64,000 nucleotides of DNA from Hydrotalea sp. (GCA_027364735.1 DAHXOT010000045.1:124001-188000), one strand, 5' to 3'; counted from the stretch's first letter, positions 48,134-64,000 are shown. Notes: generated from the sequence alone by a model not told the origin. Numbers and translations are program-made.

Positions 48134-48712
48134 ATGTTAAGTAATGAAGAAATAAAAGCTCTTCATAGAAGAATATCAGTAGAATGCAACGAACAGGCAT
48201 TTGGTCAGCTATATATGGCATTAATGCCTCATTTACTTCAATTTGCCCAATCTATTATTAAAAACAAAGAACTTTCCGAAGAAATTGTTTCCGATGTATT
48301 TATTAAAATTTGGCAAAATAAAGAGCAGTTAATTGCGGTTGAAAATTTTAAATTGTATTTATATATTAGCATAAAAAATACCGCATTAAATTACTTATCG
48401 AGGCGTTACAGAAAAAATGTTTTATCGTTAGATGATTTAAATGTTGTTACCTCTGCTTTAAACTACAATCCCGAACAAATTTTAATTACTTCCGAGCTAA
48501 TTAATAGAATTAATGTTGCTATCAATATGCTTCCTCCAAGGTGTAAGCTTATTTTTAAATTGGCCAAAGAAGATAATTTAAAGTATAATGAAATTGCCCA
48601 ACTACTCAATATTTCTATAAAAACAATCGATAGCCAAATGGCAATTGCCGTAAAAAAAATAGGAAAGGCAATTAATTTTGATTTGAAAAAAGAAAACAAA
48701 TCGCCTATTTAA
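48134..48712 (+). CDS. ECF (FecI-like) RNA polymerase sigma factor, Bacteroidota family
   Basis: A 192-residue ECF sigma factor. Region 2 is about residues 15-85 (FAQSIIKNKELSEEIVSDVFIKIW), region 4 about 125-180 with the helix-turn-helix NEIAQLLNISIKTIDSQMAIAVKKIG. Such factors with a FecR-type anti-sigma factor next door control a SusC/SusD operon in response to the glycan in the outer membrane. Start at the ATG at 48134; an earlier TTG is rejected. Next gene is the FecR protein, 55 bases downstream. Confidence 0.93.
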   Translation: MLSNEEIKALHRRISVECNEQAFGQLYMALMPHLLQFAQSIIKNKELSEEIVSDVFIKIWQNKEQLIAVENFKLYLYISIKNTALNYLSRRYRKNVLSLDDLNVVTSALNYNPEQILITSELINRINVAINMLPPRCKLIFKLAKEDNLKYNEIAQLLNISIKTIDSQMAIAVKKIGKAINFDLKKENKSPI

Positions 48713-48767
48713 AAAAATGTTAAGATTGGCTTAGTAGATTTTTTACTTTTTGGTGTCCATTACCCTG

Positions 48768-49925
48768 ATGTCTAATACTGCAAAAGAGAAAATTTGGGAA
48801 CTAATTGCCCGCAAATTATCGGGGGAAGCATCTGAACTAGAATTGCTTGAATTGCAAAGATGTTTACAGCAACATGCCGAAGAAGCCTATTCTTTAGAAA
48901 TAATGGAAGATTTATGGAGGCATCCTATACCTATTAATCGCCAATATACAGAGCATCAATTTAAAGCATTAACCCAAAAAATGCAAAATTTAGGAATAAA
49001 TGTTGATGGATTTAAAGTAGAAGACGAGCATTTAATTGAAGTGGATGAAAGTAATGAAAAATATACTCAAAAAAGCTGGATAAAAACTAATACAACCCTT
49101 ATAGCTGCTGTTTCGTTTTTTACAATTATTTTAATTTCTGCCTTATTTTATAGTAAATATAACTCTAAACAAACTGACGCTGCAAGTACTGCTGTTGCCA
49201 AAAAAAGTGAGATAACCACTAAATATGGTTCTAAAACAACGGTAGTATTACCCGATGGTACCAAAGTATGGGTAAATGCCGGCAGTAAACTATCGTACGA
49301 TAATAATTTTGGAAATAAATTGAGAGAAGTTGCTTTATTAGGAGAAGCTTTTTTTGATGTAACCCATAATGCCGAAAAACCATTTATTATTCATACATCA
49401 AAAATGGATATTAAAGTATTGGGCACTGCTTTTAATGTACGGTGCTATCCGGATGAAAATAAAATGGAAACAAGTTTATTGAGAGGAAGCATAGAAGTAA
49501 CATTAAAAGACAGATACAAAGAAAAAATTTACCTTAAACCCAATGAAAAATTAACACTTATTAACGATCAGGTTATTCAATCAAAAAACATTACTTTAAA
49601 TAAAGCCAAACAAGAATTTATTGCAGCAAAAGAACCTATTGTAGCCATTAGTCATCTTACTTATCAGCCGGTGGATAGCACTGTTATAGAAACATCGTGG
49701 GTAGAAAATAAATTAATTTTTAGAGGAGAAACCTTTGAAGAAGTTGCCCGTAAAATGGAAAAATGGTATGGAATAAACATTATCATTTCCAATGAAAAAT
49801 TAAAAGAAGCCCATTTAACAGGCTCTTTTGAAAAAGAAACAATTGACCAAGCATTAGCAGCACTTCAGATTACAACTCCCTTCAAATTTGTAAATAATAA
49901 AAACAGCATTATAATAACTAAATAA
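48768..49925 (+). CDS. FecR-family anti-sigma factor with DUF4974 domain
   Basis: A 385-residue inner-membrane protein. The N-terminal cytoplasmic part (1-105) would bind the sigma factor; one membrane helix at about 108-130 (AAVSFFTIILISALFY); the FecR domain follows (TKYGSKTTVVLPDGTKVWVNAGSKLSYD), and the C-terminal DUF4974 segment from 300 onward (EEVARKMEKWYGINIIISNEKL). It relays the signal from the STN domain of the adjacent SusC protein. Start at the ATG at 48768; an earlier TTG is less likely. Confidence 0.94.
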   Translation: MSNTAKEKIWELIARKLSGEASELELLELQRCLQQHAEEAYSLEIMEDLWRHPIPINRQYTEHQFKALTQKMQNLGINVDGFKVEDEHLIEVDESNEKYTQKSWIKTNTTLIAAVSFFTIILISALFYSKYNSKQTDAASTAVAKKSEITTKYGSKTTVVLPDGTKVWVNAGSKLSYDNNFGNKLREVALLGEAFFDVTHNAEKPFIIHTSKMDIKVLGTAFNVRCYPDENKMETSLLRGSIEVTLKDRYKEKIYLKPNEKLTLINDQVIQSKNITLNKAKQEFIAAKEPIVAISHLTYQPVDSTVIETSWVENKLIFRGETFEEVARKMEKWYGINIIISNEKLKEAHLTGSFEKETIDQALAALQITTPFKFVNNKNSIIITK

Positions 49926-50071
49926 AAACGCATGAATAAAAACTACCACAATACTGCTTAAAAAAAAACGGAAAGTGCGCCAACACTTCCCGCCAAGGAT
50001 TATTTAGAAAACTTAACATTCTTTCTGAGGGAATATAGTTTTCTTATTATTTAACCTTAGACAATAAAAGT

Positions 50072-53000
50072 ATGAAAAAAACTAACCAAGTGAGTGCTTT
50101 TTCACAAACAGGCATTCTTAAAGTACTGCTTCTTATGAAACTAACGATTGCAATACTGTTAATCTCGCTAGTGCAGGTTTCAGCTAAAGGATTTTCACAA
50201 TCAAAAGTTACCCTTAAATTATCGGATGTTGAGCTAAAAAAAGTGCTTTTTCAAATTGAGAAAAAAAGCAAATGCCGCTTTTTATACAACGATGATGCTG
50301 TTTCTGCAACCAATCCTAAAGTAAATGTAAATGTTGAAAACGAATCTGTAACAGAAGTATTAAATACGCTGTTAATAGGAACAAATTTAACGTATAAAGT
50401 TTTAAGCAATAATCTTATTGTATTGTCTTCAAAAGACAACACAATAATTCAAGATATTAAAATTACGGGACGTGTAGTAGGTGCTAATGGAGATGGTGTT
50501 CCATCTGCTACCATACGAGTAAAAGGAACAACCGTTGTTACATCGGCCGATGTAAATGGCCGATTTTCTATAGTAGCACCGGATAATGCAACATTGATTA
50601 TTTCATCGGTTGGATATATAGAAACCGAAATACAAATAAACGGCCGAAAACAAGTAGATATTGAATTGAAAGAATCTGAAAAAGTTTTAGATCAAGTAGT
50701 GGTTATTGGTTACGGTAATGCCAATAAAAGAGACTTAACGGGTTCTATTGTTAAAATTGCGGGAAAAGAAGTAGCAGATAAACCCAATGCTAATCCTATT
50801 GCTTCTTTGCAAAGTAAAGTAGCAGGGTTATACGTGGTAAATAATGGTACACCGGGTCAGGCTCCGGATATTCGTATTCGTGGTACAGTAAGTATTGGTA
50901 ATGTACATCCATTGTATGTGGTAGATGGTATATTTAACGATAATATCGATTACTTAAATCCTAATGATATTGAATCAATAGAAATTTTAAAAGATCCTTC
51001 TTCCTTAGCAATATTTGGGGTAAAAGGTGCAACAGGTGTTATTGCCATTACAACCAAAAAAGCCAAAGCCGGACAAACAGTTATTAATTTTAATACAGCA
51101 TACGGCTATAAAAAATTAGTTGATAAAATTCAAATGGCCAATGCCAGTCAGTTTAATACATTATTTGCCGAAGAAAATGCCAATAATAATGTGCCTACAC
51201 CCAATTATTCGGCATTAACTTCTAATACCGATTGGATAGATGCTGTAACCAGAACAGGCAATTTTAGTAACAGCAATTTAAACGTTTCTGGCAGCTCTCA
51301 AAATAATAGATTTAATTTTGGTGTAAGTTATATTCAAGATCAAGGAATAATTAAGCACGAGCAATTACAAAAATTATTACTCAACTTTAATGATGAATTT
51401 AAGGTTAATAATTCTATTAAATTAGGAGTAAACTTTAATACATCTCGCACCAATAATCCTTATGGTGCTTCATGGGTATTAGATGCAGCCAGAAAAGTAA
51501 TGCCACAAGTTTCGGCACAACCTAAACAATTTCAGGTACAAAACCCTTATGGTGGCAATACGATAAATACCAATATTTATTCTGGTTTAGATATTGCATT
51601 GCAAAATTCGGGGGTAGTTAATCCATTATTAATTTTGGAAAACGAATGGGATAAAACAAAAAGTACAGAATACAGATATGTAGGAAGTGTATATACCGAT
51701 ATTAATTTTTTAAAGTATTTCAATTTCAGAGCTACTTGGTATGCCGATATTAGCCAAGTTGCTACACGTATTTATACTCCTTTATATTACTATTACAATC
51801 CTTTAACCAACACACCTACGCTATATAGGCCACTAACCAGCCTATCAGAAACCAATAGCGATTGGAGAAAATTTCAACAAGACTATATACTTACTTTTAA
51901 AAGAAAATTTGGAGACCATAGTATAACCGCAACAGGTGGTTTTACATCCTATTACTTTGGTAACTTTAATAGAAGTGCAACTGCTGCTCAAGGTACCAGT
52001 CCTGCAGATTTACCCATTCCCAATGATCCCAGATTTTGGTATATGAGTTCCGGACCATGGATTACACAAGCAAACACAAGTGCCAGTTCCAATCAAAGTG
52101 AATATACTACAGTATCCGGTTTAGCTCGTATTTTATATAATTATAAAGAAAAATATTTCTTTAATGCTTCATTAAGAAACGATGCATCTTCTCGTCTTCC
52201 CAATCATCGAAATCAACAATTTTGGGCTTTAGGTGGTGCTTGGGAAATTACGAAAGAAGACTTCATGCAGAATCAAAAAATTTTCGACTTCTTAAAATTA
52301 AAAGGTTCAATTGGCGTATTGGGTAATCAAACTGCCAGTTTCTTAGATGGAACCCCGATTAACTATCCTGCCTATCCTAATTTATTAACAGGTAGTAGTT
52401 CAACTGCAGTATTTAACCAATATGTTTATGGTGCAGCTCAACCACAATGGTTAGATAATCCTAATTTAAGATGGGAAACAGTAAATGCTTCAGAAATAGG
52501 CATAGAAGGTAATGCATTTAATAACCAATTGCATTTTGAAATTAATTATTACAATAAGGTTACCAATAATTTAATGACATACGTCGATAGATCTCCCATT
52601 GGATTACCTAATGAATTAATCAACGGAGGAAGCCTTAAAAACTGGGGTGAAGAAATATCCGCAACATGGAATCAAAAATTGAATAAAGATTGGTCAATAT
52701 CGGTAGGTGGTAACATTACTTTTGTACAAAATAAAGTACTTAGTTTAGCGAGCGATCTTCCATCCGGTGTATTAATTAGAGGATTCCAAAATAACGGAAG
52801 TGCAGAAGCCAGAACAATGCCAGACCAACCAATAGGATCATTCTTTGGATATAAAGTAGCAGGATTATATCAATCTTATGCCGATATTTTAGCTTCACCG
52901 GTTGCATCGGCAATAGGTTCGTACAGACCAGGAGATTTTAAATTTAAAGATGTGAATGGAGATGGCGTAATTTCTCCGAGCGATAGAACAGTAATTGGTA

Positions 53001-53494
53001 ATCCTTCACCCAAATTTTTTTATGGGGGTTCTATCAATATCAACTATAAGAAATTTAATTTAGGAATTGATGTAGGTGGTGTGTATGGAAACGATATTTT
53101 CAGAACATGGGGCTCACTCGAATCTCCTTTCCAAAGAGTTAATTATCCGGCATTTAAAATGAACAGATGGCGTGGACCGGGTACATCTAATTGGGAACCA
53201 ATTATCAGTCAGGCAGATAGGTTTAATTATAATGGTTCTACTTATAATATTGAAGATGGAAGTTATTTCAGAATTAGAAATCTTCAACTTGGATACACAG
53301 TAGATTCAAAGTTCTTAGCTAAAAATAAAATTTCAAGCATAAGAATATATGCTAATGTTCAAAACCTTAAAACATGGAAGCGTAATTTAGGTTACTCACC
53401 AGAATATGGTGGAGATGCAACCGCTTTTGGATTTGATAATGGCGGTGGTGCAATTCCCATGATTACAACAATGGGTTTGAACGTAACATTTTAA
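50072..53494 (+). CDS. SusC/RagA-type TonB-linked outer-membrane protein with STN domain
   Basis: A 1140-residue outer-membrane transporter. After a long signal peptide (about 45 residues, ending SAKGFSQ) come an STN domain at about 55-125 (VTLKLSDVELKKVLFQIE), a carboxypeptidase-D-like repeat at 130-205 (KITGRVVGANGDGVPSATIRVKG), the plug with VVVIGYGNANKRDLTGSIV, and the barrel to the final Phe (MGLNVTF). SusC imports oligosaccharides using TonB energy; the STN domain is the hallmark of sigma/anti-sigma controlled members, and those genes lie directly upstream. SusD follows by 24 bases. Confidence 0.96.
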   Translation: MKKTNQVSAFSQTGILKVLLLMKLTIAILLISLVQVSAKGFSQSKVTLKLSDVELKKVLFQIEKKSKCRFLYNDDAVSATNPKVNVNVENESVTEVLNTLLIGTNLTYKVLSNNLIVLSSKDNTIIQDIKITGRVVGANGDGVPSATIRVKGTTVVTSADVNGRFSIVAPDNATLIISSVGYIETEIQINGRKQVDIELKESEKVLDQVVVIGYGNANKRDLTGSIVKIAGKEVADKPNANPIASLQSKVAGLYVVNNGTPGQAPDIRIRGTVSIGNVHPLYVVDGIFNDNIDYLNPNDIESIEILKDPSSLAIFGVKGATGVIAITTKKAKAGQTVINFNTAYGYKKLVDKIQMANASQFNTLFAEENANNNVPTPNYSALTSNTDWIDAVTRTGNFSNSNLNVSGSSQNNRFNFGVSYIQDQGIIKHEQLQKLLLNFNDEFKVNNSIKLGVNFNTSRTNNPYGASWVLDAARKVMPQVSAQPKQFQVQNPYGGNTINTNIYSGLDIALQNSGVVNPLLILENEWDKTKSTEYRYVGSVYTDINFLKYFNFRATWYADISQVATRIYTPLYYYYNPLTNTPTLYRPLTSLSETNSDWRKFQQDYILTFKRKFGDHSITATGGFTSYYFGNFNRSATAAQGTSPADLPIPNDPRFWYMSSGPWITQANTSASSNQSEYTTVSGLARILYNYKEKYFFNASLRNDASSRLPNHRNQQFWALGGAWEITKEDFMQNQKIFDFLKLKGSIGVLGNQTASFLDGTPINYPAYPNLLTGSSSTAVFNQYVYGAAQPQWLDNPNLRWETVNASEIGIEGNAFNNQLHFEINYYNKVTNNLMTYVDRSPIGLPNELINGGSLKNWGEEISATWNQKLNKDWSISVGGNITFVQNKVLSLASDLPSGVLIRGFQNNGSAEARTMPDQPIGSFFGYKVAGLYQSYADILASPVASAIGSYRPGDFKFKDVNGDGVISPSDRTVIGNPSPKFFYGGSININYKKFNLGIDVGGVYGNDIFRTWGSLESPFQRVNYPAFKMNRWRGPGTSNWEPIISQADRFNYNGSTYNIEDGSYFRIRNLQLGYTVDSKFLAKNKISSIRIYANVQNLKTWKRNLGYSPEYGGDATAFGFDNGGGAIPMITTMGLNVTF

Positions 53495-53518
53495 TAATAT
53501 TCATAAACGAATTAGTAT

Positions 53519-55090
53519 ATGAAAAATATCATAAAAATTATAAAGAGCTTTTTAATCTTAGCTACTTTATTTTTAGCCATTTCGGGGTGCAACAAATTTC
53601 TCGATCGTAAACCCCTTACGGCAACATTAAACGATTTGAATCAAGGTGCATTAGAAGCTCAAAGTTTAACCTTATATAGTACTTTAAGAAACTATGCAGG
53701 CTTTTCAACATTACCTTGGATAGATTTTAATAGTATTAGAGATGATGATGCACAAAAAGGAAGTAGCTTAACCGATGGTGCTGAAATTAATGCCGAATTT
53801 GAAACATTTCAATACACAAAAGATGATTGGGCAACCAACACTTATTGGAACGATCATTATTACATGATTAACTTATGTAACAAAGAATTATATTGGGCCG
53901 ATTCTTTAAAACTAACAGATCAAGCTTCGCTTAGAAATGTTGGAGAAGCCCACTTTTTTAGAGCATACTCTTATTTCGAATTAGTAAAAGCTTATGGCGG
54001 ATATATTCCCAAATTCGATTATTATTATACCGATCCAAAATTAGGTATTCAGCCAAATGCTTCTGCAACCGGAGACCCTACCATTATTTATACTTTAATA
54101 GATAGAGATTTAGATTCTGCTTCTAAATTATTGCCTTTAGATTGGAAAGTAGCAGGAACAAACCGTTATCCGGGCAGATTAACCAGTGGTGCTGCAAATG
54201 CATTATGGGCACAAACCTATTTGTTTCGTCAGCAATGGAGTAAAGTAATTAGTTTATGTAATACCATTATTAATTCGGGCGAATATGCATTGGCTACCAA
54301 TTTTACCGATATATGGAAAGATGGTTTAAATGCTGTAGGTAAAAACGGTCCCGAATCTATTTTTGAGATGCAAGCTTGGGTTGGGGCAAATGGTACCAAT
54401 TATAATGGCGTACCATGGGGCACATCTCAAAATGTTAGGCAAGGTGGTGCCGATGTATCGTGGAATTTAGGTTGGGGTTGGAACACACCTACCGATGTAT
54501 TAAATAATGCTTGGGACAATACCGATCCAAGAAAATCAATGACTATATTATATTCAGGTCAATTCGATGGAGGTCCTGCTACCGGAGGTTACGGTGCAAC
54601 TTTACCACCATACAATCCGGGTACTGCATTAGATCAAAAATATTGGAATAAGAAAGTATATTCAGATCCTGCCATGCGGCAATTTACTGGCGAAATTAAT
54701 GGCAGTGGTGGTGCCGATTGGATAAATAAAAGAATTATACGTTATGCCGATGTAATATTAATGCTGGCAGAAGCAGCTAACGAAACAGGAGATGGTGCAA
54801 CTGCAGAAGCCATGTTAGAACAAATAAGAGCTAGGGCAAGAGGTAGTAATGCTTCTGTTTTACCACATGTAGCTTTTGCAAATCAAGCACAAATGAGGCA
54901 AGCAATTAAAAATGAGCGCCGTTGGGAATTTGCTATGGAAGGAGCAAGATTTTACGATTTGGTTCGTTGGGGAGATGCTAATAATGTTTTATCTGGATTA
55001 GGATATACACCCAGATGCCAATATTATCCTATTCCTCAAAAAGCAATTGATTTATCGGGTGGTGTTTTAAAGCAAAACCCCAATTGGTAG
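53519..55090 (+). CDS. SusD/RagB-family surface glycan-binding lipoprotein
   Basis: A 523-residue lipoprotein; the signal peptide ends in ISGC with Cys24 as lipid anchor. The body has the SusD TPR-like helices (GEAHFFRAYSYFELVKAYGG near 140) and the C-terminal SusD segment with NERRWEFAMEGARFYDLVRWG near 460-480. It forms the lid over the SusC barrel and binds the glycan on the cell surface. It lies 24 bases after susC and is followed by the LamG gene. Confidence 0.96.
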   Translation: MKNIIKIIKSFLILATLFLAISGCNKFLDRKPLTATLNDLNQGALEAQSLTLYSTLRNYAGFSTLPWIDFNSIRDDDAQKGSSLTDGAEINAEFETFQYTKDDWATNTYWNDHYYMINLCNKELYWADSLKLTDQASLRNVGEAHFFRAYSYFELVKAYGGYIPKFDYYYTDPKLGIQPNASATGDPTIIYTLIDRDLDSASKLLPLDWKVAGTNRYPGRLTSGAANALWAQTYLFRQQWSKVISLCNTIINSGEYALATNFTDIWKDGLNAVGKNGPESIFEMQAWVGANGTNYNGVPWGTSQNVRQGGADVSWNLGWGWNTPTDVLNNAWDNTDPRKSMTILYSGQFDGGPATGGYGATLPPYNPGTALDQKYWNKKVYSDPAMRQFTGEINGSGGADWINKRIIRYADVILMLAEAANETGDGATAEAMLEQIRARARGSNASVLPHVAFANQAQMRQAIKNERRWEFAMEGARFYDLVRWGDANNVLSGLGYTPRCQYYPIPQKAIDLSGGVLKQNPNW

Positions 55091-55120
55091 TTTAATTATT
55101 CAATCTTAATAATCATTATT

Positions 55121-55987
55121 ATGAATAAAAAATTTTTGATAGCAACTAATTACTTTTTTATTGCTACAATACTAATCTTAGGATTTATAGGTTGCCAGAA
55201 AATGGATAGACCGGCACTTGGAAAATACCTTCAAGATGCAAATCCTCCGGGTGGGCCTTTAAAATTTTATGCAGCTTTTGATGGAACAACCTCTAATCCG
55301 TTAATGAATGCTGTAGACAGTATACGAGCAAATTTTCCGTCTGCTAATCCTTTTACATCGGTGGCAGGTATTAGCGGTAAAGCAGTACAAGGTGTAAGTG
55401 GAATGGCAATTAATTACCCTTCTGCCAATGATTTTAAATATGCTACAAGTTTTACTATTGCTTTTTGGGTAAAAACAACCGGTGTGCCCAAATCTGCCGA
55501 TGGACCTCAATTTGTTTTCTCTTTAGTACAAAATAATTATTCATGGCATAATAGTGTAATATTTTTATTATTCGACCATACCGGAGCCGGATCTACTGTT
55601 GATTCTGCCGCAATTAGTTTTGCCTTGAAAGATAATTGGTATGTTTTTCATAATGGAGATAGAATACCTAAACTATACGATCAGCAATGGCATCATTTAG
55701 CTTTTGTTTATGATGAAACAACTTCTTTATTAACCACTTATGCCGATGGTAAAGCGTTGGTGGTATCTGCCGCTGCTTCTTCACAAACTGGGGTAAAAGG
55801 TCCTTTAAATTTTACCACAACCGATATTGCAAATTTGGTAATTGGCGGATGGAATACACATGCCGGTTTAAATGGTGCAACAGGAAGTTGGATACAATCT
55901 TATCCTGGTGCAATAGATCAGTTTAGAATGTATGGAAAAGTGTTATCGGCATCCGAAATACAAAGTTTGTATAATAACAAACAATAA
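55121..55987 (+). CDS. LamG-like surface lipoprotein, probable glycan-binding
   Basis: A 288-residue lipoprotein with the lipobox Cys25 (FIGC). The mature part is a jelly-roll of the LamG/concanavalin type: FAFWVKTTGV near 110 (the SxWVK pattern), WHHLAFVYDETTSLLTTYADGK near 190, and PGAIDQFRMYGKVLSASEIQSLY near 270, which is the end motif of LamG_3. It is in the position of the surface glycan-binding proteins that follow SusD in utilisation loci. A terminator 46 bases downstream closes this transcription unit. Confidence 0.9.
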   Translation: MNKKFLIATNYFFIATILILGFIGCQKMDRPALGKYLQDANPPGGPLKFYAAFDGTTSNPLMNAVDSIRANFPSANPFTSVAGISGKAVQGVSGMAINYPSANDFKYATSFTIAFWVKTTGVPKSADGPQFVFSLVQNNYSWHNSVIFLLFDHTGAGSTVDSAAISFALKDNWYVFHNGDRIPKLYDQQWHHLAFVYDETTSLLTTYADGKALVVSAAASSQTGVKGPLNFTTTDIANLVIGGWNTHAGLNGATGSWIQSYPGAIDQFRMYGKVLSASEIQSLYNNKQ

Positions 55988-56033
55988 TTTACCATCATAA
56001 AAATTTTAGATTAGTGTAAGATGATACATTCTA

Positions 56034-56069
56034 AAGGGCTGAATGATTTGTATTCAGCCCTTGTTTTTT
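56034..56069 (+). terminator. Intrinsic terminator after the LamG gene
   Basis: An 11-bp perfect stem (AAGGGCTGAAT and its complement) with a loop of seven bases, then G and six T. It lies 46 bases after the LamG stop and 29 bases before the cytochrome gene. Confidence 0.9.
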
Positions 56070-56097
56070 CGGTAATAAAGAATAAAAAATATTTTCC

Positions 56098-57339
56098 ATG
56101 GGTACAGTTATACACAATCGGAAATCTTTTGTAGTTATTACCGGTATTATTATTTCTACCTTTTTATTTGTAAAGTGTATTGATGACAGTTCTAAAAGTA
56201 CTACCGCTAATAACAATAAAAATAAATTTCAAGAATTTGCGGGTTCTAAAGTATGTGCCGAATGCCATAAAAAAATTTATGATACACATGTTCTAACAGC
56301 ACATTATTTAACCTCTCAACCGGCTAATGAAAAAAATATAAAAGGAAGTATTGCAGAAGGCGAACACACATTTTATTACAATCCCAATGTATATGTTTCA
56401 GTTCAAAAAAGAGATAGTTTATTTTATCAGGCCGAATATGTTGATGGCGTTGAAAAATATTTTGCACCTATTAATATTACGGTAGGATCGGGTAAGCGTG
56501 GTCAAACTTTTTTGTATTGGAATAATCATCGTTTATTTCAATTGCCACTTACCTATTTTACCGCTTTAAAGCAATGGACAAATAGTCCGGGATTTTCTAA
56601 TAGGGTAGTATTTAGGCGCCCTATTACTTCTCGGTGTTTAGAATGCCATAGCACGTTTTTTGAAAAAATTAATACCGATACAAATAGCTTGGTGGAAGAA
56701 TTTGATAGAACACATATTGTGTATGGTGTAGATTGTGAAAAATGCCATGGCCCGGCGGCTAATCATGTGGCATTTCACCAAAAAAATCCTTCAGCAACCA
56801 AAGCACAATTTATTATCAATCCTTCCAACTTTACCCGAACACAAAGTTTAGAATTATGCCAATTATGCCATGGAGGAAGATTAACCAAATCAAAGCCATC
56901 TTTTAGCTTTCAGGCAGGAGAAAAATTATCGGATTATTTTTCAATGGATACTGTACAAAAAAATATTTCCAATATTGATGTTCATGGAAATCAATACGGA
57001 ATGTTAATTGCCAGTAAATGTTTTAAGATGAGTAAAATGACTTGTGTTACTTGCCATAATTCGCATCAAAACGAAACTGGAAACAAAATTCTATTTTCAC
57101 AACATTGCATGAGTTGCCATACCGAAGCAAACAATACCTTTTGTAAGGCCAAAAATAAAGTAGGCAATAAAATTATCAACAATTGTATTGATTGCCACAT
57201 GCCCGAGCAAGCATCAAAATCAATAATGGTATTGCTTCAAGGGCAGAATATTCCTACGTCGGCAACTATGCGTTCTCATTTTATTGCAGTGTATCCTACT
57301 GAAACAAAAAATTTTTTACAGGCACAAAAAAGTAAATAG
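56098..57339 (+). CDS. Seven-heme c-type cytochrome, membrane-associated
   Basis: A 413-residue exported protein with an N-terminal membrane helix (about 10-29), probably an anchor (the Cys near residue 29 is not in a good lipobox). Seven CxxCH heme motifs are present: CAECH, CLECH, CEKCH, CQLCH, CVTCH, CMSCH and CIDCH, several followed by further conserved His. The arrangement resembles cytochrome c554-like multiheme electron-transfer proteins. It follows the glycan-uptake genes after a terminator and precedes the VCBS gene by 19 bases. The electron donor or acceptor is unknown. Confidence 0.88.
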   Translation: MGTVIHNRKSFVVITGIIISTFLFVKCIDDSSKSTTANNNKNKFQEFAGSKVCAECHKKIYDTHVLTAHYLTSQPANEKNIKGSIAEGEHTFYYNPNVYVSVQKRDSLFYQAEYVDGVEKYFAPINITVGSGKRGQTFLYWNNHRLFQLPLTYFTALKQWTNSPGFSNRVVFRRPITSRCLECHSTFFEKINTDTNSLVEEFDRTHIVYGVDCEKCHGPAANHVAFHQKNPSATKAQFIINPSNFTRTQSLELCQLCHGGRLTKSKPSFSFQAGEKLSDYFSMDTVQKNISNIDVHGNQYGMLIASKCFKMSKMTCVTCHNSHQNETGNKILFSQHCMSCHTEANNTFCKAKNKVGNKIINNCIDCHMPEQASKSIMVLLQGQNIPTSATMRSHFIAVYPTETKNFLQAQKSK

Positions 57340-57358
57340 TGTAAATAAAAATTAAAAA

Positions 57359-60300
57359 ATGCGTATGTATATGTTTAAAAAAATACGGTTTTCTTTTTTT
57401 GTTATAAGTGTTTTTTTTACAGCTTGCCATTCATCTAATACGGGCTTTACGGCTTTATCATCTTCAACAACACATATTCAATTTGAGAATAATCTCGAAA
57501 AAAAAGAAGGGTTTGGAATTTTATATTACTTATACTATTACAATGGAGGAGGGGTTGCTGTAGGAGATATTAATAATGATGGATTACCCGATATTTATTT
57601 TACAGCAAATAGTAAAGGGCACAATAAATTATATTTAAATAAAGGCAATTTTGAATTTGAAGATATAACCGAAAAAGCAGGTGTAGAAGGCACTTCGGAT
57701 TGGTGTACCGGAGCCACTATGGCCGATGTTAACGGAGATGGTTTATTGGATATTTACGTATCGTCTGTAAATAATGCTTATGGGTTACATGGGCATAACG
57801 AATTTTTTATTAATAATGGTAATGGAACTTTTACAGAAAGTGCGGCTAAATATGGATTAGATTTTTCGGGATTTACAGTTCAAACCGTTTTTTTCGATTA
57901 TGATCATGATGGAGATTTAGATTGTTTTATTTTAAACGAATCGCAACAACCTTATCAAAATATTGTAGATACCAGTCATAGAAGAGAATTTGATGCCAAT
58001 GCAGGCGATTATTTATTTAGAAACGATATAAACACAACCGGAAAATTTACCGATGTATCGAAACAAGCAGGAATTAATCAAAGTAATTTGGGCTATGGCT
58101 TAGGGTTATCGGTAGCCGATTTAAATAATGATGGATGGGAAGATATTTATATAGGAAACGATTTTCACGAAAACGATTATTATTATGTTAATAATCACGA
58201 TGGAACTTTTACAGAAAGTGGCGCCAAACATTTTAATCATTACTCCCGATTTAGTATGGGTAACGATATTGCCGATTTTAATAATGATGGCCAATTAGAT
58301 GTACTTACTGTAGATATGCTTCCGCCCGATGAAAAAACCCTCAAAACTTATGGAAGCGATGAGCATAACGATATTTATGATTTTAAAATAATACACAATG
58401 GGTATCAACCCCAATTTTCAAGAAACTGTTTACAACGAAATAATGGCAATGGCGAAAGCTTTAGCGATATTGGATTAATTGCAGGCGTATCTGCTACCGA
58501 TTGGAGTTGGAGCCCTTTAATGGCCGATTTTGACAATGATGGGAATAAAGATATTTTTATTTCAAGTGGTATTGTAAAACGACCGGTAGATTTAGATTAT
58601 GTACGTTTTGTTTCCGATTTGGCTGCAAGAGTTAACCGAAATGCCTCTACACAATTTGATGATGTTACAGTTGATAAAATGCCCGAAGGAAGCTCGTATT
58701 GTTATATGTTTAAAGGCGATGGCACAGGCCAATTTAACAGCATAGGAAAAGATTGGGGTTTAATGAATAAAAAAGGTTTTTATAATGGAGCTACTTATGC
58801 CGATTTAAATAATGATGGAAATTTAGATTTAATAGTTAATGCACTTAATGCAAAAGCAGCAATCTTTAAAAACATTACACAACACAAAAATTATCTTACC
58901 ATCAACTTTAAAGGAGAAGGAGCTAATAAATTTGGTATTGGAGCCAAAGCATATCTTTTTACTAAAAATAAAATGCAATACGAGCAATTAATGCTCACAA
59001 GAGGTTTTCAATCATCTACAGAACCTCGCTTACATTTTGGAATAGATACTATTAAAACAATTGATAGTGTTGTTATTGTTTGGCCAAATCAAAAATATCA
59101 AACTATCAAAAACATTCAGCCTAATAAGCAAATAACCGTATTCGAGAAAGATGCAATGAATAATTTCAATTACAACCTTTTCTTTATACCTAAAAAAGAA
59201 AAGGCAATCAATATTACTAACCAAATACAATGTAATTGGAAGCATATTGAAAATAATTTTAACGATTTTAATTTCCAATATTTAATTCCGCATAAAGAAA
59301 GTACACGCGGACCAAAAATTGCAGTTGGCGATGTAAATAAAGATGGGTTAGAAGACTTTTATGTATGCGGAGCAAAAGGGCAACCCGGTGCTTTAATGAT
59401 TCAACAAAAAGATGGCAATTTCATTAGTTCCGATACTGCATTGTTTAATCAATTTGCAATATGTGAAGATGTAGATGCTATTTTTTTTGATGCCAATGGA
59501 GATGGTTTTCTTGATTTATGGGTTGTTGCGGGTGGAAATGAATTACCCTCCAACGATATTAGTAATGCTGATAGGTTATTTATTAACGATGGAAAAGGGC
59601 ATTTTACTTTTTCGCCACAAGCATTTCAACAAGAATATTGGAATAAATCTTGTATTGCAGTTGCCGACATAGATCATGATGGAGATTTGGATGTTTTTAT
59701 TGGGCATTTTACCGATCAGCAGAAATATGGCTACGCAATGAATTCTTATTGCTACATTAATAATGGCAAAGGAAAATTTAGTATTGCCGATACAAAAACC
59801 ATTAACCTACTTAAACTGGGTATGGTTACTTCTGCTTCATTTACTGATATAAATAATGACGGTTGGCCCGATTTAATTGTTGCCGGCGAATGGATGCCCG
59901 TAAAAATTTTTATAAATAACAAAGGGAAGTTTGTAGAAACCGATATTCCTAATTCAACAGGTTTATGGCAAAATATTTATACCACCGATGTAAATGGCGA
60001 TGGATTTCCCGATATACTTGCTGGTAATTGGGGGCATAATTCTAAACTTTGGGCCGGTAAAAATGGACCATTAAAACTGTATGTAAAAGATTTTGATAAC
60101 AATGGAATTATTGAACAAATAATGTGTTATACCATTGATGGTAAAGAATATACTTTTTTACCTAAAGATGAGTTAGAACAAGCCTTGCCTATTTTACGAA
60201 AAGCCTATTTAACCTACAGCGAAGTGGCCGGTAAAACCGTGCAATATATGTTTTACGATTTATTTAAAGATTATACTGAATTAAAAGCCGAAACTTTAGG

Positions 60301-60658
60301 TAATGCCTGTTTTTTAAATGATGGCAAAGGAAATTTTATTAAACAAGATTTACCTTTTAACCTTCAACTATCACCAATATTTTCTTTTCAAAAAGAGGAA
60401 GGAGCCAACCAGTTTTTTAGTGGAGGCAATTTTTTTGATGTTCCTCCATACGAAGGATCTTACGATGCAGCAGCATTATCAAGTTTTTCGCTAAAGGCTT
60501 CTAAAAATACTATTACCGTTAGCGATGCAACAGTAGAAGATATTAAAGGGCAAGTAAGAGACTTAAAATGGATTAACAATGCCAAATATGGTAAACTATT
60601 AATGGTAGCAAGAAATAACGATAAAATTGAGTTTTATAAAATGCCAAATAAAAATTAA
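57359..60658 (+). CDS. VCBS/FG-GAP repeat lipoprotein with ASPIC/UnbV domain
   Basis: A 1099-residue exported lipoprotein; the signal peptide ends in TACHSS (Cys near 24). I count 12 DxNxDGxxD calcium-binding motifs of FG-GAP/VCBS type, seven in residues 60-500 and five in 645-890, with an ASPIC/UnbV domain (residues about 515-600) between the two groups. Each half can fold as a beta-propeller. Proteins of this kind (CRTAC1-like) are secreted or surface-bound and often lie near SusC/SusD pairs, but no activity is established. It is coupled to the cytochrome gene and 3 bases ahead of the first GH144-like gene. Confidence 0.9.
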   Translation: MRMYMFKKIRFSFFVISVFFTACHSSNTGFTALSSSTTHIQFENNLEKKEGFGILYYLYYYNGGGVAVGDINNDGLPDIYFTANSKGHNKLYLNKGNFEFEDITEKAGVEGTSDWCTGATMADVNGDGLLDIYVSSVNNAYGLHGHNEFFINNGNGTFTESAAKYGLDFSGFTVQTVFFDYDHDGDLDCFILNESQQPYQNIVDTSHRREFDANAGDYLFRNDINTTGKFTDVSKQAGINQSNLGYGLGLSVADLNNDGWEDIYIGNDFHENDYYYVNNHDGTFTESGAKHFNHYSRFSMGNDIADFNNDGQLDVLTVDMLPPDEKTLKTYGSDEHNDIYDFKIIHNGYQPQFSRNCLQRNNGNGESFSDIGLIAGVSATDWSWSPLMADFDNDGNKDIFISSGIVKRPVDLDYVRFVSDLAARVNRNASTQFDDVTVDKMPEGSSYCYMFKGDGTGQFNSIGKDWGLMNKKGFYNGATYADLNNDGNLDLIVNALNAKAAIFKNITQHKNYLTINFKGEGANKFGIGAKAYLFTKNKMQYEQLMLTRGFQSSTEPRLHFGIDTIKTIDSVVIVWPNQKYQTIKNIQPNKQITVFEKDAMNNFNYNLFFIPKKEKAINITNQIQCNWKHIENNFNDFNFQYLIPHKESTRGPKIAVGDVNKDGLEDFYVCGAKGQPGALMIQQKDGNFISSDTALFNQFAICEDVDAIFFDANGDGFLDLWVVAGGNELPSNDISNADRLFINDGKGHFTFSPQAFQQEYWNKSCIAVADIDHDGDLDVFIGHFTDQQKYGYAMNSYCYINNGKGKFSIADTKTINLLKLGMVTSASFTDINNDGWPDLIVAGEWMPVKIFINNKGKFVETDIPNSTGLWQNIYTTDVNGDGFPDILAGNWGHNSKLWAGKNGPLKLYVKDFDNNGIIEQIMCYTIDGKEYTFLPKDELEQALPILRKAYLTYSEVAGKTVQYMFYDLFKDYTELKAETLGNACFLNDGKGNFIKQDLPFNLQLSPIFSFQKEEGANQFFSGGNFFDVPPYEGSYDAAALSSFSLKASKNTITVSDATVEDIKGQVRDLKWINNAKYGKLLMVARNNDKIEFYKMPNKN

Positions 60659-60661
60659 GCA

Positions 60662-62353
60662 ATGTTTTTAGCAAGAGAAAATTATTTGAAGCATACAAAA
60701 TGGATAGTACTATTTTTTTTACTTGAAGGTTGTACTAAAAATAACAGTAGCAATACACCTCCGGTGGTTAGTTACAGTTTTGGTATACAATCGTATTCGG
60801 TTGATGGTATTTCTTCTTCAAATATTATACATAATATTAGTACAAAGCCAACAATTAAATTTCAGTTTGGTGCTGCAATTAATAGAGCCGATATTGTAAA
60901 TAGTATCAGTTTAAAAAATAATTTTTCCAACCTTATTAGCTATTCTATTGCTTATTCAAATAACGATAGTGTTGTTATACTACAACCGGTATTGCCATTA
61001 AATTATCTTTCAAAATATACAGTTTCAGTTTCAATTCCTTTACGTTCTTCAACAGGTGCTACTTTAAGTTCGGGTATTTCGTTTAGTTTTTACACGCAAA
61101 TTGATTCAACCGATAAGTTTCCTGTAATTGCAGATACAGCTTTACTTACACTAGTTCAAAAACAAACGTTTAAATATTTTTGGGATTTTGGTCACCCAAC
61201 TTCTGGAATGGCAAGAGAGCGAAATACCAGTGGTGATGTGGTAACAACCGGCGGAACAGGTTTTGGTATTATGGCAATGCTGGTAGCAATTAACAGAGGG
61301 TTTATTTCAAGAACAGATGGATTAAATAGAATTAGTACCATCACCAATTTTCTTACCACAAAATGCCAGCGTTGGCATGGAGCTTTTTCTCATTGGATGA
61401 ATGGTGCAACCGGTGCTACAGTTGCATTTGGAAATAATAATGGAGCCGATTTGGTTGAAACATCTTATTTGCTGGAAGGATTATTATCTGCCCGACAATT
61501 TTTTAATACTGCCGATGCTAATGAAATATTATTGCGAGATAGTATTAATTCTATTTGGAATAATATTGAATGGAATTGGTTTACACAAAATGGAACTCAG
61601 CAAAGTTTGTATTGGCAATACAATCCTTCTTACACTAATTCGGCAGATGTTTGGAGTATTGCAATAAATGGTTGGAATGAGGCTTTAATAACCTATGTAT
61701 TGGCTGCATCTTCTTCTACACATTCCATTGCTAAAAACGTGTACGATGTGGGTTGGGCTTCTTCGGGTAAAATTAAAAATGGCAATAGTTATTATGGTAT
61801 TACGTTGCCTTTGGGTCCTTCGTATGGTGGTCCATTATTTTTCGAGCAGTATTCTTTTATAGGTATTAATCCAACTTCTTTAACCGATGCCTATGCAAAT
61901 TATCAAACACAAACAATAGCACATACGCAAATTAATTACAATTATAGTGTAAATAACCCTAAACAATATTTTGGGTATAGTAATCTTTCTTGGGGCTTAA
62001 CAGCAAGTGATATTGAAGGAGGATATACTGCAAGCTCACCTACAAACGATGTAGGCGTAATTGCACCTACTGCCGCTATTGCTTCTATGCCATATACTCC
62101 TGTAGAATCTATTAATGCATTAAAATTTTTCTATTACAAGTTGGGCGATAAGTTATGGGGCAATTATGGCTTTTATGATGCTTTTAATTTAACCAATCCT
62201 TGGTTTGCAACTTCAACATTGGCAATAGATCAAGGACCAATTATTTGCATGATTGAAAATTACAGAACAGGATTATTGTGGAACTTATTTATGAGTTGCC
62301 CCGAAATAAAAAACGGAATGAAAAACTTAGGATTTAGTAGCCCTAATTTATAA
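60662..62353 (+). CDS. GH144-like glucanase with N-terminal Big_5-like domain, lipoprotein (copy 1)
   Basis: A 563-residue lipoprotein, lipobox Cys near residue 24 (LEGCTK). Residues about 35-155 form an Ig-like domain (SYSFGIQSYSVDG with KYTVSVSIPLRS), and residues 165-563 are an (alpha/alpha)6 glycoside hydrolase of the glucoamylase-like family (Pfam PF10091), which includes GH144 endo-beta-1,2-glucanases. The likely acidic pair is Asp263 and Glu266 in GADLVETSYLLEGL, and the C-terminal IDQGPIICMIENYRTGLLWN is intact. First of three tandem copies, starting 3 bases after the VCBS gene. Confidence 0.85.
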   Translation: MFLARENYLKHTKWIVLFFLLEGCTKNNSSNTPPVVSYSFGIQSYSVDGISSSNIIHNISTKPTIKFQFGAAINRADIVNSISLKNNFSNLISYSIAYSNNDSVVILQPVLPLNYLSKYTVSVSIPLRSSTGATLSSGISFSFYTQIDSTDKFPVIADTALLTLVQKQTFKYFWDFGHPTSGMARERNTSGDVVTTGGTGFGIMAMLVAINRGFISRTDGLNRISTITNFLTTKCQRWHGAFSHWMNGATGATVAFGNNNGADLVETSYLLEGLLSARQFFNTADANEILLRDSINSIWNNIEWNWFTQNGTQQSLYWQYNPSYTNSADVWSIAINGWNEALITYVLAASSSTHSIAKNVYDVGWASSGKIKNGNSYYGITLPLGPSYGGPLFFEQYSFIGINPTSLTDAYANYQTQTIAHTQINYNYSVNNPKQYFGYSNLSWGLTASDIEGGYTASSPTNDVGVIAPTAAIASMPYTPVESINALKFFYYKLGDKLWGNYGFYDAFNLTNPWFATSTLAIDQGPIICMIENYRTGLLWNLFMSCPEIKNGMKNLGFSSPNL

Positions 62354-62363
62354 AACTATCAAT

Positions 62364-63653
62364 ATGAAAAAATTGGTTCTTTCATTCATAACGCTATTTT
62401 TTTCTTTGGCGGTAATTGCCCAAAAAAATTTGTCGGATAATGAATTACTCGATGTAGTACAAAAACAAACATTTAAATATTTTTGGAATTTTGCTCATCC
62501 CGTTAGTGGAATGGCAAGAGAAAGAAGTAATACAACTTTTGGATATGGTAACGAAGTTGTAACAACCGGAGGAACCGGCTTTGGCGTAATGAGCATTATT
62601 GTTGCCACAGAACGAAAATGGATAGAAAGAGATACTGCAGCAAAACAAATACTTAAAATAATTAATTTTCTTTTAAAAGCTAATTCGTATCATGGGGCTT
62701 TCCCACATTGGATGAATGGCACAACCGGCAAAACAATTCCTTTTAGCAGAAAAGATGATGGAGCCGATTTAGTTGAAACATCTTTTTTATTTGAAGGATT
62801 ATTATGTGCTAAACAATATTTTAATGCAAATAACGAAGCAGAAAATGAAGTAAGAAATAAAATTGGTTGGTTGTGGAATGATGTTGAGTGGAATTGGTTT
62901 ACAAAAGGTGAAGATGTACTATATTGGCATTGGAGCCCCAATAACGGATGGGCAATGAACTTTCCGGTACATGGCTTTAATGAATGCTTAATAATGTATG
63001 TATTGGCTGCATCGGCCGAAAAATATGCTATCAATCCTTCGGTATATCATAAAGGTTGGGCAAGTGGAAGTTTTTTTAAAAATGGTAAAACCTTTTATGG
63101 ATACCAATTGCCATTAGGTTTCGATTATGGCGGGCCCTTATTTTTTTCGCATTATTCTTTTTTAGGATTAAAGCCTAAAGGCTTAAAAGATCAATACGCC
63201 GATTACTGGATACAAAACTGTCATCATACATTAATAAATCATGCCTATTGTGTGGCTAATCCAAAAAAATTTAAAGGCTATGGAGAAGATTGTTGGGGAT
63301 TAACTGCCAGCGATACCTATAATGGCTACGATGCTCATTCACCAACCAACGACCATGGAACTATTTCTCCTACAGCTGCATTATCTGCATTTCCTTATAC
63401 ACCTAATTTTTCGATGAAAGCATTAAAACACTTTTACTACGATTTGGGCAATAAAATATGGGGCGAATATGGTTTTACCGATGCATTTAACGAAACTAAA
63501 AATTGGTATGCTACATCGTATTTGGCAATAGATCAAGGACCTATTATTTGTATGATAGAAAATTACAGAACAGGATTATTATGGAACTTATTTATGAGTT
63601 GCCCCGAAGTACAAAAAGGCTTAAAAAAATTAGGATTTCAATATTCTAAATAA
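62364..63653 (+). CDS. GH144-like glucanase, secreted (copy 2)
   Basis: A 429-residue protein with signal peptide (FITLFFSLAVIAQ) and no lipobox, so it should be released to the periplasm or beyond. The catalytic domain matches copy 1: KQTFKYFWNFAHPVSGMARER at the start, GADLVETSFLFEGLL with Asp135 and Glu138, GGPLFFSHYSF near 250, and IDQGPIICMIENYRTGLLWN at the end. Unlike copy 1 it lacks the Big_5-like domain. It lies 10 bases after copy 1 and 8 bases before copy 3. Confidence 0.88.
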   Translation: MKKLVLSFITLFFSLAVIAQKNLSDNELLDVVQKQTFKYFWNFAHPVSGMARERSNTTFGYGNEVVTTGGTGFGVMSIIVATERKWIERDTAAKQILKIINFLLKANSYHGAFPHWMNGTTGKTIPFSRKDDGADLVETSFLFEGLLCAKQYFNANNEAENEVRNKIGWLWNDVEWNWFTKGEDVLYWHWSPNNGWAMNFPVHGFNECLIMYVLAASAEKYAINPSVYHKGWASGSFFKNGKTFYGYQLPLGFDYGGPLFFSHYSFLGLKPKGLKDQYADYWIQNCHHTLINHAYCVANPKKFKGYGEDCWGLTASDTYNGYDAHSPTNDHGTISPTAALSAFPYTPNFSMKALKHFYYDLGNKIWGEYGFTDAFNETKNWYATSYLAIDQGPIICMIENYRTGLLWNLFMSCPEVQKGLKKLGFQYSK

Positions 63654-63661
63654 TTATAGTT

Positions 63662-64000
63662 ATGAAGCAATATTTTCTCATCAGCATTTCATTGCTATCT
63701 ATAAATTTATTGGCACAACAACCCTCTAATAAACCAGTTCATTCAAAAAATGCTATTGCTCCGGTTGGTATTATAAAAAATATTCCCGATTCTATATTAT
63801 TAGACATTGTTCAACGACAAACATTTCGTTATTTCTGGCACTATGCACATCCTATAAGCAGATTGGCAAGAGAAAGAGATAATACTGTAAAAGCCGAATA
63901 TTATTGGGATTATATTAATGAAGCCGAAGATGAACCCAATTTAAGTAAACATACTTTTGGCGAAGAGGCATGTGCTATTGGTGGTACAGGTTTTGGCATT
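63662..64000 (+). CDS. GH144-like glucanase, copy 3 (cut off at the window end)
   Basis: The first 113 codons of a third paralogue. It has a signal peptide (ISISLLSINLLAQQ) and the family start VQRQTFRYFWHYAHPISRLARER. An insertion of about 25 residues rich in Glu, Asn and Asp (YINEAEDEPNLSKHTFGEE) lies before the GGTGFGI motif, absent from copies 1 and 2. It is 8 bases after copy 2, so it belongs to the same unit. The stop is beyond the window. Confidence 0.85.
   Translation, partial: MKQYFLISISLLSINLLAQQPSNKPVHSKNAIAPVGIIKNIPDSILLDIVQRQTFRYFWHYAHPISRLARERDNTVKAEYYWDYINEAEDEPNLSKHTFGEEACAIGGTGFGI

Follow-up and report, generated by a model that had tools for sequence, protein, structure and literature searches.

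A SusC/SusD locus with a heptaheme cytochrome and an UnbV repeat protein

A stretch of 64,000 nucleotides from Hydrotalea sp., hereafter the window (bases 124001-188000 of contig C11; GCA_027364735.1 DAHXOT010000045.1), contains at 48134-64000 a polysaccharide-utilisation locus (PUL) in which genes for a heptaheme c-type cytochrome and an UnbV repeat protein stand between a SusC/SusD uptake system and a series of glycoside hydrolase (GH) genes. An earlier note on this DNA had described a SusC/SusD system with its own sigma/anti-sigma pair, a LamG lipoprotein and GH144-like glucanases, and in the same run a seven-heme cytochrome and a 12-motif VCBS lipoprotein. All of these parts were recovered by domain matches at the position given for them, on the plus strand from 48134 onward (Table 1). 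The cytochrome carries seven CXXCH motifs, and the 12 motifs of the VCBS-type protein are reproduced by a simple count of D-x-D-x-D-G. The latter protein, of 1099 amino acids, contains ten FG-GAP_3 stretches and an UnbV/ASPIC domain, and is called the UnbV protein below; its AlphaFold model (predicted local distance difference test score, pLDDT, of 66) was not used.

The genes are tightly spaced. SusC and SusD are separated by 24 bases, SusD and LamG by 30, LamG and cytochrome by 110, cytochrome and UnbV by 19, and UnbV and the first GH144-type gene by 3, with gaps of 10 and then 8 bases between the GH144-type genes. The third of these ends about 1.07 kb beyond the window (L005:2074), and the run ends there because the gene that follows is encoded in the opposite direction. 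The locus thus has what marks a SusC/SusD-type PUL, SusC and SusD side by side and accompanied by glycan-degrading enzymes. Like a standard PUL of this type under extracytoplasmic function (ECF) sigma/anti-sigma control, it has sigma factor, FecR, SusC, SusD, glycoside hydrolases and a glycan-binding lipoprotein encoded in a single run; unlike such a PUL, the locus includes a heptaheme cytochrome and an UnbV repeat lipoprotein as conserved members. No earlier description of a SusC/SusD-cytochrome-UnbV combination was found in the open-licence literature searched.

Family searches detected only five SusD and four UnbV genes in the whole 2.77 Mb genome, and the window cytochrome is its sole PF13435 cytochrome. 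Because these genes are so few, and because their order is conserved across genera, their co-location goes beyond chance.

Table 1 Features of the locus, in window coordinates
Feature	Position	Strand	Evidence
ECF sigma-70 factor, Bacteroidetes SusCD-associated type	48134..48712	+	TIGR02985, over cut-off
FecR-type anti-sigma factor	48768..49925	+	FecR and FecR_C domains
SusC/RagA TonB-dependent transporter with STN domain	50072..53494	+	TIGR04056, 712 bits
SusD/RagB glycan-binding lipoprotein	53519..55090	+	PF07980
LamG (concanavalin-A-like) lipoprotein, probably binding glycan at the surface	55121..55987	+	PF13385; position in block conserved
Terminator-like hairpin, then T run	56034..56062	+	Found at 19/19 LamG-cytochrome junctions, with covariation
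Heptaheme c-type cytochrome, predicted NrfA/MccA/OcwA-type fold, N-terminal membrane anchor or lipoprotein	56098..57339	+	Seven CXXCH; predicted model
FG-GAP (VCBS-type) repeat lipoprotein with UnbV/ASPIC domain	57359..60658	+	Domain matches
GH144-type endo-beta-1,2-glucanase homologue (gene 1), lipoprotein with Big_5 domain	60662..62353	+	PF10091
GH144-type endo-beta-1,2-glucanase homologue (gene 2), Sec signal	62364..63653	+	PF10091
GH144-type gene (gene 3), truncated at the window end	63662..64000	+	PF10091; 470 amino acids in full

Conservation of the gene block across genera

Conservation of the block was followed in two surveys, the first covering 60 relatives and the second a scan of genome contigs that added 80 loci with organism names. 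For annotation of the neighbourhoods, custom profiles made from the proteins of the window and related proteins were used in place of Pfam, so that distant members may have escaped detection. Among the 60 relatives, nine genomes besides the window's own contained short orthologues of the cytochrome. In five of those nine (L038-L042) the SusC, SusD, LamG, cytochrome and UnbV genes follow one another in the same order, four times with a sigma/anti-sigma pair, and in a genome of the same genus (L046) a contig end interrupts the block within the cytochrome gene. The SusC-SusD-LamG-cytochrome-UnbV order was found in about 20 loci or genomes from several genera, usually with GH144 and GH30 genes after it; cultured relatives that carry it include Flavihumibacter profundi (L062) and, with the cytochrome inverted, Ginsengibacter hankyongi (L071). 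The co-occurrence of cytochrome, VCBS and GH144-like genes near SusC/SusD in other genomes, which the earlier note had put forward as a check, was thus borne out.

In a maximum-likelihood tree of 86 cytochromes, the window sequence lies inside a clade of 23 rows with support of 100/100, and 20 of these rows have the LamG block. Outside this clade, SusC, SusD or UnbV lies within 7 kb of the cytochrome in 39 of 63 rows, in differing arrangements. Mucilaginibacter and Pedobacter have SusC-SusD-GH30-cytochrome, Arenibacter and Flavivirga have SusC-SusD-UnbV-cytochrome, and Mucilaginibacter also has a divergent cytochrome beside UnbV-PAP2/haloperoxidase-like-UnbV-SusD-SusC. Taking the 72 loci with enough flanking sequence, we found SusC or SusD within 6 kb of the cytochrome in 44, on the same strand in 40. 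Related heptaheme forms of 590-670 amino acids with tetratricopeptide repeats (TPRs) had neither nearby in any of 11 loci. The surveyed loci are related by descent and such counts are not independent; the existence of several distinct arrangements of cytochrome and SusC/SusD is the stronger argument.

Pairwise identities of the cytochrome within the block correlated with those of SusC (0.60), SusD (0.44) and UnbV (0.73), values matched by at most one of 500 permutations and, for SusC and UnbV, by none of 500, although a correlation of this kind is also expected from shared genome ancestry. The five-gene order persists while median cytochrome identity falls to 0.50. A chance neighbourhood is ruled out by a gene order conserved across genera. 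On these sequence comparisons we have high confidence in the parts and in their conservation, and regard the cytochrome and UnbV genes as conserved parts of the PUL, not accidental neighbours.

Relatives of the cytochrome were also seen on contigs labelled Gemmatimonadota (L124), Betaproteobacteria (L132) and Acidobacterium (L136), where either transfer or binning error is possible.

A hairpin between the LamG and cytochrome genes

The gap between the LamG and cytochrome genes contains a 12-pair stem followed by Ts. At the corresponding junctions (L038-L073, L119 and the window), an automatic scan detected a hairpin in 17 of 19 loci, and L040 and L065, added by eye, complete the set. Alignment of the 19 hairpins revealed that 8 of 10 pairs had changed on both sides with pairing retained. 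In the same loci, the scan detected no such hairpin where the cytochrome-UnbV gap is longer. Strong hairpins were present 3' of SusD in 19 of the 30 gaps tested, so that it may be common for such loci to close the SusC/SusD unit with a hairpin.

Inspection by eye of the sequence between the hairpin and the cytochrome gene yielded no convincing promoter, consensus matches being at the level of shuffled sequence. In several loci the hairpin lies 14-30 bases ahead of the cytochrome start, a spacing that leaves little room for a promoter and makes read-through at a lower level likely. SusC-SusD-LamG lies on one side of the hairpin and cytochrome-UnbV-GH144 on the other, so expression of the two halves may be unequal. 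Since the hairpin is conserved, unequal expression of the halves would not alone refute the membership of the cytochrome and UnbV genes in the locus.

The GH144-type enzymes and the likely glycan

The assignment of the glucanases as GH144-like was correct. All three PF10091 proteins match CpSGL (Protein Data Bank (PDB) entries 5gzh and 5gzk) and the related 4gl3 across the full catalytic domain, with phmmer E-values from 1e-123 to 2e-162. The general acid of CpSGL is E211, and D135, D139 and E142 are further acidic residues (PMC12102758). An E211 equivalent is present in each of the three proteins; equivalents of D135, D139 and E142 all occur in the products of the second and third genes, and in the first, N stands in place of D135 and the D139 and E142 equivalents are retained. 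By their resemblance to CpSGL across the (alpha/alpha)6 domain and by these acidic residues, the three genes are GH144-type endo-beta-1,2-glucanase homologues, with glucanase activity predicted. They differ from CpSGL in forming three tandem paralogues, the first a lipoprotein with a Big_5 domain. A lipobox in the first protein and Sec-type starts in the second and third, as read from their sequences, suggest one surface and two periplasmic enzymes.

In block loci with enough downstream sequence, GH144 was present in 16 of 17 and GH30, annotated by Pfam, in 14 of 17, and other cytochrome-bearing loci contain GH16, GH5, GH3 and GH30. The genomes of the relatives have 0 to 4 GH30 matches each, whereas their SusD candidates can exceed 100, which indicates that GH30 is over-represented in the block loci. 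The glycoside hydrolase content points to beta-glucans, and to beta-1,2-glucan for the window locus itself. A strict specificity for beta-1,2-glucan was considered and is weakened by the GH30 genes in related blocks.

GH30 is absent from the window locus. The genome's GH30 pair is on another contig (C27, L138:419-5277), where it flanks a 659-amino-acid protein of no assigned family and stands apart from SusC/SusD pairs as far as the contig was inspected; relatives carry GH30 inside the block.

Relationship of the cytochrome to multiheme reductases

Exactly seven CXXCH motifs are present in 86 of 86 family members. Five histidines outside these motifs are conserved, His69, His223, His296 and His323 in all 86 members and His394 in 85, as compared with seven hemes, and a non-heme cysteine, Cys308, is again found in 86 of 86. 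The heptaheme-TPR proteins, from the same order (L047-L057), share the seven CXXCH motifs and Cys308; unlike the window cytochrome, they have C-terminal TPRs, no adjoining SusC/SusD, and Met at the positions of both His69 and His296, a replacement that suggests these two histidines as axial ligands.

The AlphaFold model of the cytochrome (mean pLDDT 91.5, predicted template modelling score 0.84) is confident and is rich in beta structure between hemes 1 and 2. In a Foldseek search of the PDB, two chains of OcwA were the only significant matches (E 2.6e-10, probability 1.00, TM-score 0.54), and a sequence profile search matched OcwA, MccA and cytochrome c554. OcwA is a cell-surface terminal reductase in which hemes 2 and 5 are open; it reduces nitrite and hydroxylamine, exchanges electrons with electrodes, and has an extra beta-sheet domain in common with MccA (PMC6703420). 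Hemes 1 to 4 of OcwA from Thermincola potens (PDB 6i5b) align by sequence with hemes 1 to 4 of the window cytochrome, OcwA hemes 6, 7 and 8 match its hemes 5, 6 and 7 by motif pattern, and a beta-rich stretch follows heme 1 in both proteins. The window protein is nevertheless not OcwA proper: OcwA has nine hemes, two of them open, as opposed to seven here, identity is about 16%, the cytochrome has no evident C-terminal three-helix bundle in predicted secondary structure, and its context is Gram-negative. In the alignment heme 2 of OcwA is retained, whereas hemes 5 and 9 have no equivalent, which makes an open heme 2 the likely reaction site.

MccA, an octaheme sulfite reductase (PDB 4rkm), and cytochrome c554 (PDB 1bvb) show profile similarity over the heme motifs. 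Compared with MccA, the window cytochrome has fewer hemes and a single invariant non-heme cysteine, Cys308; the two-cysteine copper site of MccA is not evident in it. On the model and the profiles together, the cytochrome is a heptaheme protein with a predicted fold of the NrfA/MccA/OcwA/c554 type, and we have moderate confidence that it is reductase-type. Its N-terminal helix ends in a cysteine that is invariant in the nine orthologues and present in most of the 86 members, though missing in several, and the cytochrome is a probable lipoprotein.

The structural match raises the question of whether the cytochrome is itself an OcwA-like surface terminal reductase serving an acceptor outside the cell, for instance Fe(III) or the humic or melanin quinones that accompany fungal and plant debris. 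Its best match is a protein with that function (PMC6703420), and the invariant N-terminal cysteine of the orthologues fits a lipoprotein. However, neither an outer-membrane porin-cytochrome conduit nor an electron donor nor another multiheme gene was found in the locus, and searches with PF13435 and PF09699, which do not represent every multiheme family, returned no other such gene in the genome. Moreover, COX1 homologues in the genome suggest aerobic respiration, and surface exposure of the cytochrome is putative. We judge this alternative rather unlikely. A more specific version, in which a heptaheme reductase established in beta-glucan loci among many Bacteroidota sits at the cell surface by SusC/SusD and reduces Fe(III) or quinones in fungal and plant debris, making glycan uptake and extracellular redox chemistry one encoded machine, appears improbable. 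If it were true, surface reduction of Fe(III) or quinones might drive Fenton-type loosening of the glucan matrix, or the debris might act as an electron sink.

The earlier note had supposed that the cytochrome and the VCBS protein could link glycan processing to electron transfer, for instance if the glycan is cleaved oxidatively or an extracellular acceptor is used. Membership of both genes in the PUL as conserved parts is supported; oxidative cleavage is not. A cytochrome that accepts electrons from oxidative glycan cleavage, or from oxidation of the products, and passes them on would account for a redox protein within a glycan locus, and a PAP2/vanadium-haloperoxidase-like gene does occur in some UnbV loci (L040, L078, L100, L110, L116, L125, L130). 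Yet the nearest folds, OcwA and MccA, are those of reductases, no oxidase, lytic polysaccharide monooxygenase or other sugar-acting oxidoreductase gene was detected in the block or nearby, no AA10 monooxygenase was matched in the genome, and the window locus has no haloperoxidase-like gene. Glycan oxidation by the locus is left without a supporting gene, and we consider it very improbable. The OcwA match somewhat raises the plausibility of an extracellular acceptor.

Proposed role of the cytochrome

We propose that the locus serves beta-glucan utilisation in a Chitinophagaceae-type bacterium. The sigma/anti-sigma pair would control a SusC/SusD/LamG uptake module, which in the DNA is followed by the hairpin and then by the cytochrome-UnbV-GH144 module. 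The GH144 lipoprotein would cut glucan at the cell surface and SusC/SusD would take up the fragments, whose breakdown the two remaining GH144 enzymes would complete in the periplasm. Held to the membrane by its N-terminus, the cytochrome would move electrons via six hemes to an open heme 2. There it would reduce a metal or small molecule that the cell encounters along with the glucan; candidates include nitrite, hydroxylamine, a reactive oxygen or quinone species, and Fe(III). We take the UnbV repeat protein to be surface-bound, as a partner in binding or as a scaffold. Use of a small-molecule or extracellular acceptor by the cytochrome is possible, and our confidence in any named substrate is low. 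To the proposal as a whole, a beta-glucan locus with the cytochrome as an accessory membrane-held reductase and not a glycan-cleaving enzyme, we give an even chance.

Several observations weigh against this proposal. The reductase role is a prediction, held with moderate confidence, and the Foldseek TM-score against OcwA is only about 0.55. The lipobox is non-canonical, with K, Q, R, T or N preceding the cysteine in most members, which leaves the membrane and the side uncertain. The hairpin could uncouple expression of the cytochrome from that of SusC/SusD. Furthermore, in the same clade as the window cytochrome, L061 and L063 have it standing alone without PUL context and L071 has it inverted within the locus, and Flavobacterium loci carry it alone, outside any PUL; these cases indicate that it can work away from this locus.

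The solitary and inverted genes, and a position that varies in other genera, are also what would be seen if PULs were mobile cassettes with the cytochrome and UnbV genes as passengers of no shared function. The persistence of the five-gene order at a median cytochrome identity of 0.50, the tight spacing and the family-wide enrichment near SusC/SusD argue otherwise, and hitch-hiking seems to us quite improbable. Alternatively, the cytochrome might be a detoxifying reductase for nitrite, hydroxylamine, nitric oxide or peroxide, present in PULs because both come into use when the cell attacks fungi, algae or bacteria, alive or dead, and with no direct link to the glycan. The NrfA-type fold, the nitrite and hydroxylamine reduction by OcwA (PMC6703420) and the occurrence of the gene outside PULs are consistent with this role; the conserved block and co-varying distances suggest instead a tie to this particular uptake system, and we hold pure detoxification to be rather unlikely.

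The accessory-reductase proposal would bear on how these loci are viewed. PULs are described as systems for binding, cutting and importing glycans. That a multiheme reductase stays with SusC/SusD across several Bacteroidota families, and often within beta-glucan loci, suggests a redox component in glycan foraging by soil and freshwater bacteria that the uptake model omits. Seven CXXCH motifs together with Cys308 provide a family-wide marker with which the same arrangement can be sought in other PULs.

UnbV genes in other SusC/SusD loci

The idea that the UnbV protein is the partner in a special pair with the cytochrome was only partly upheld: in many loci of the relatives, UnbV lies beside SusC/SusD and the cytochrome is absent. 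The window's own genome has two more SusC-SusD-UnbV loci of this kind (L006:5090-15659 and L007:3786-18275), one with DUF1573 and PAP2 genes and the other with a GH65 gene and a tandem UnbV pair. Across SusC/SusD loci, a PAP2/vanadium-haloperoxidase-like gene adjoins UnbV genes at L040:4628-5950 and L006:14328-15659, and likewise in L078, L100, L110, L116, L125 and L130.

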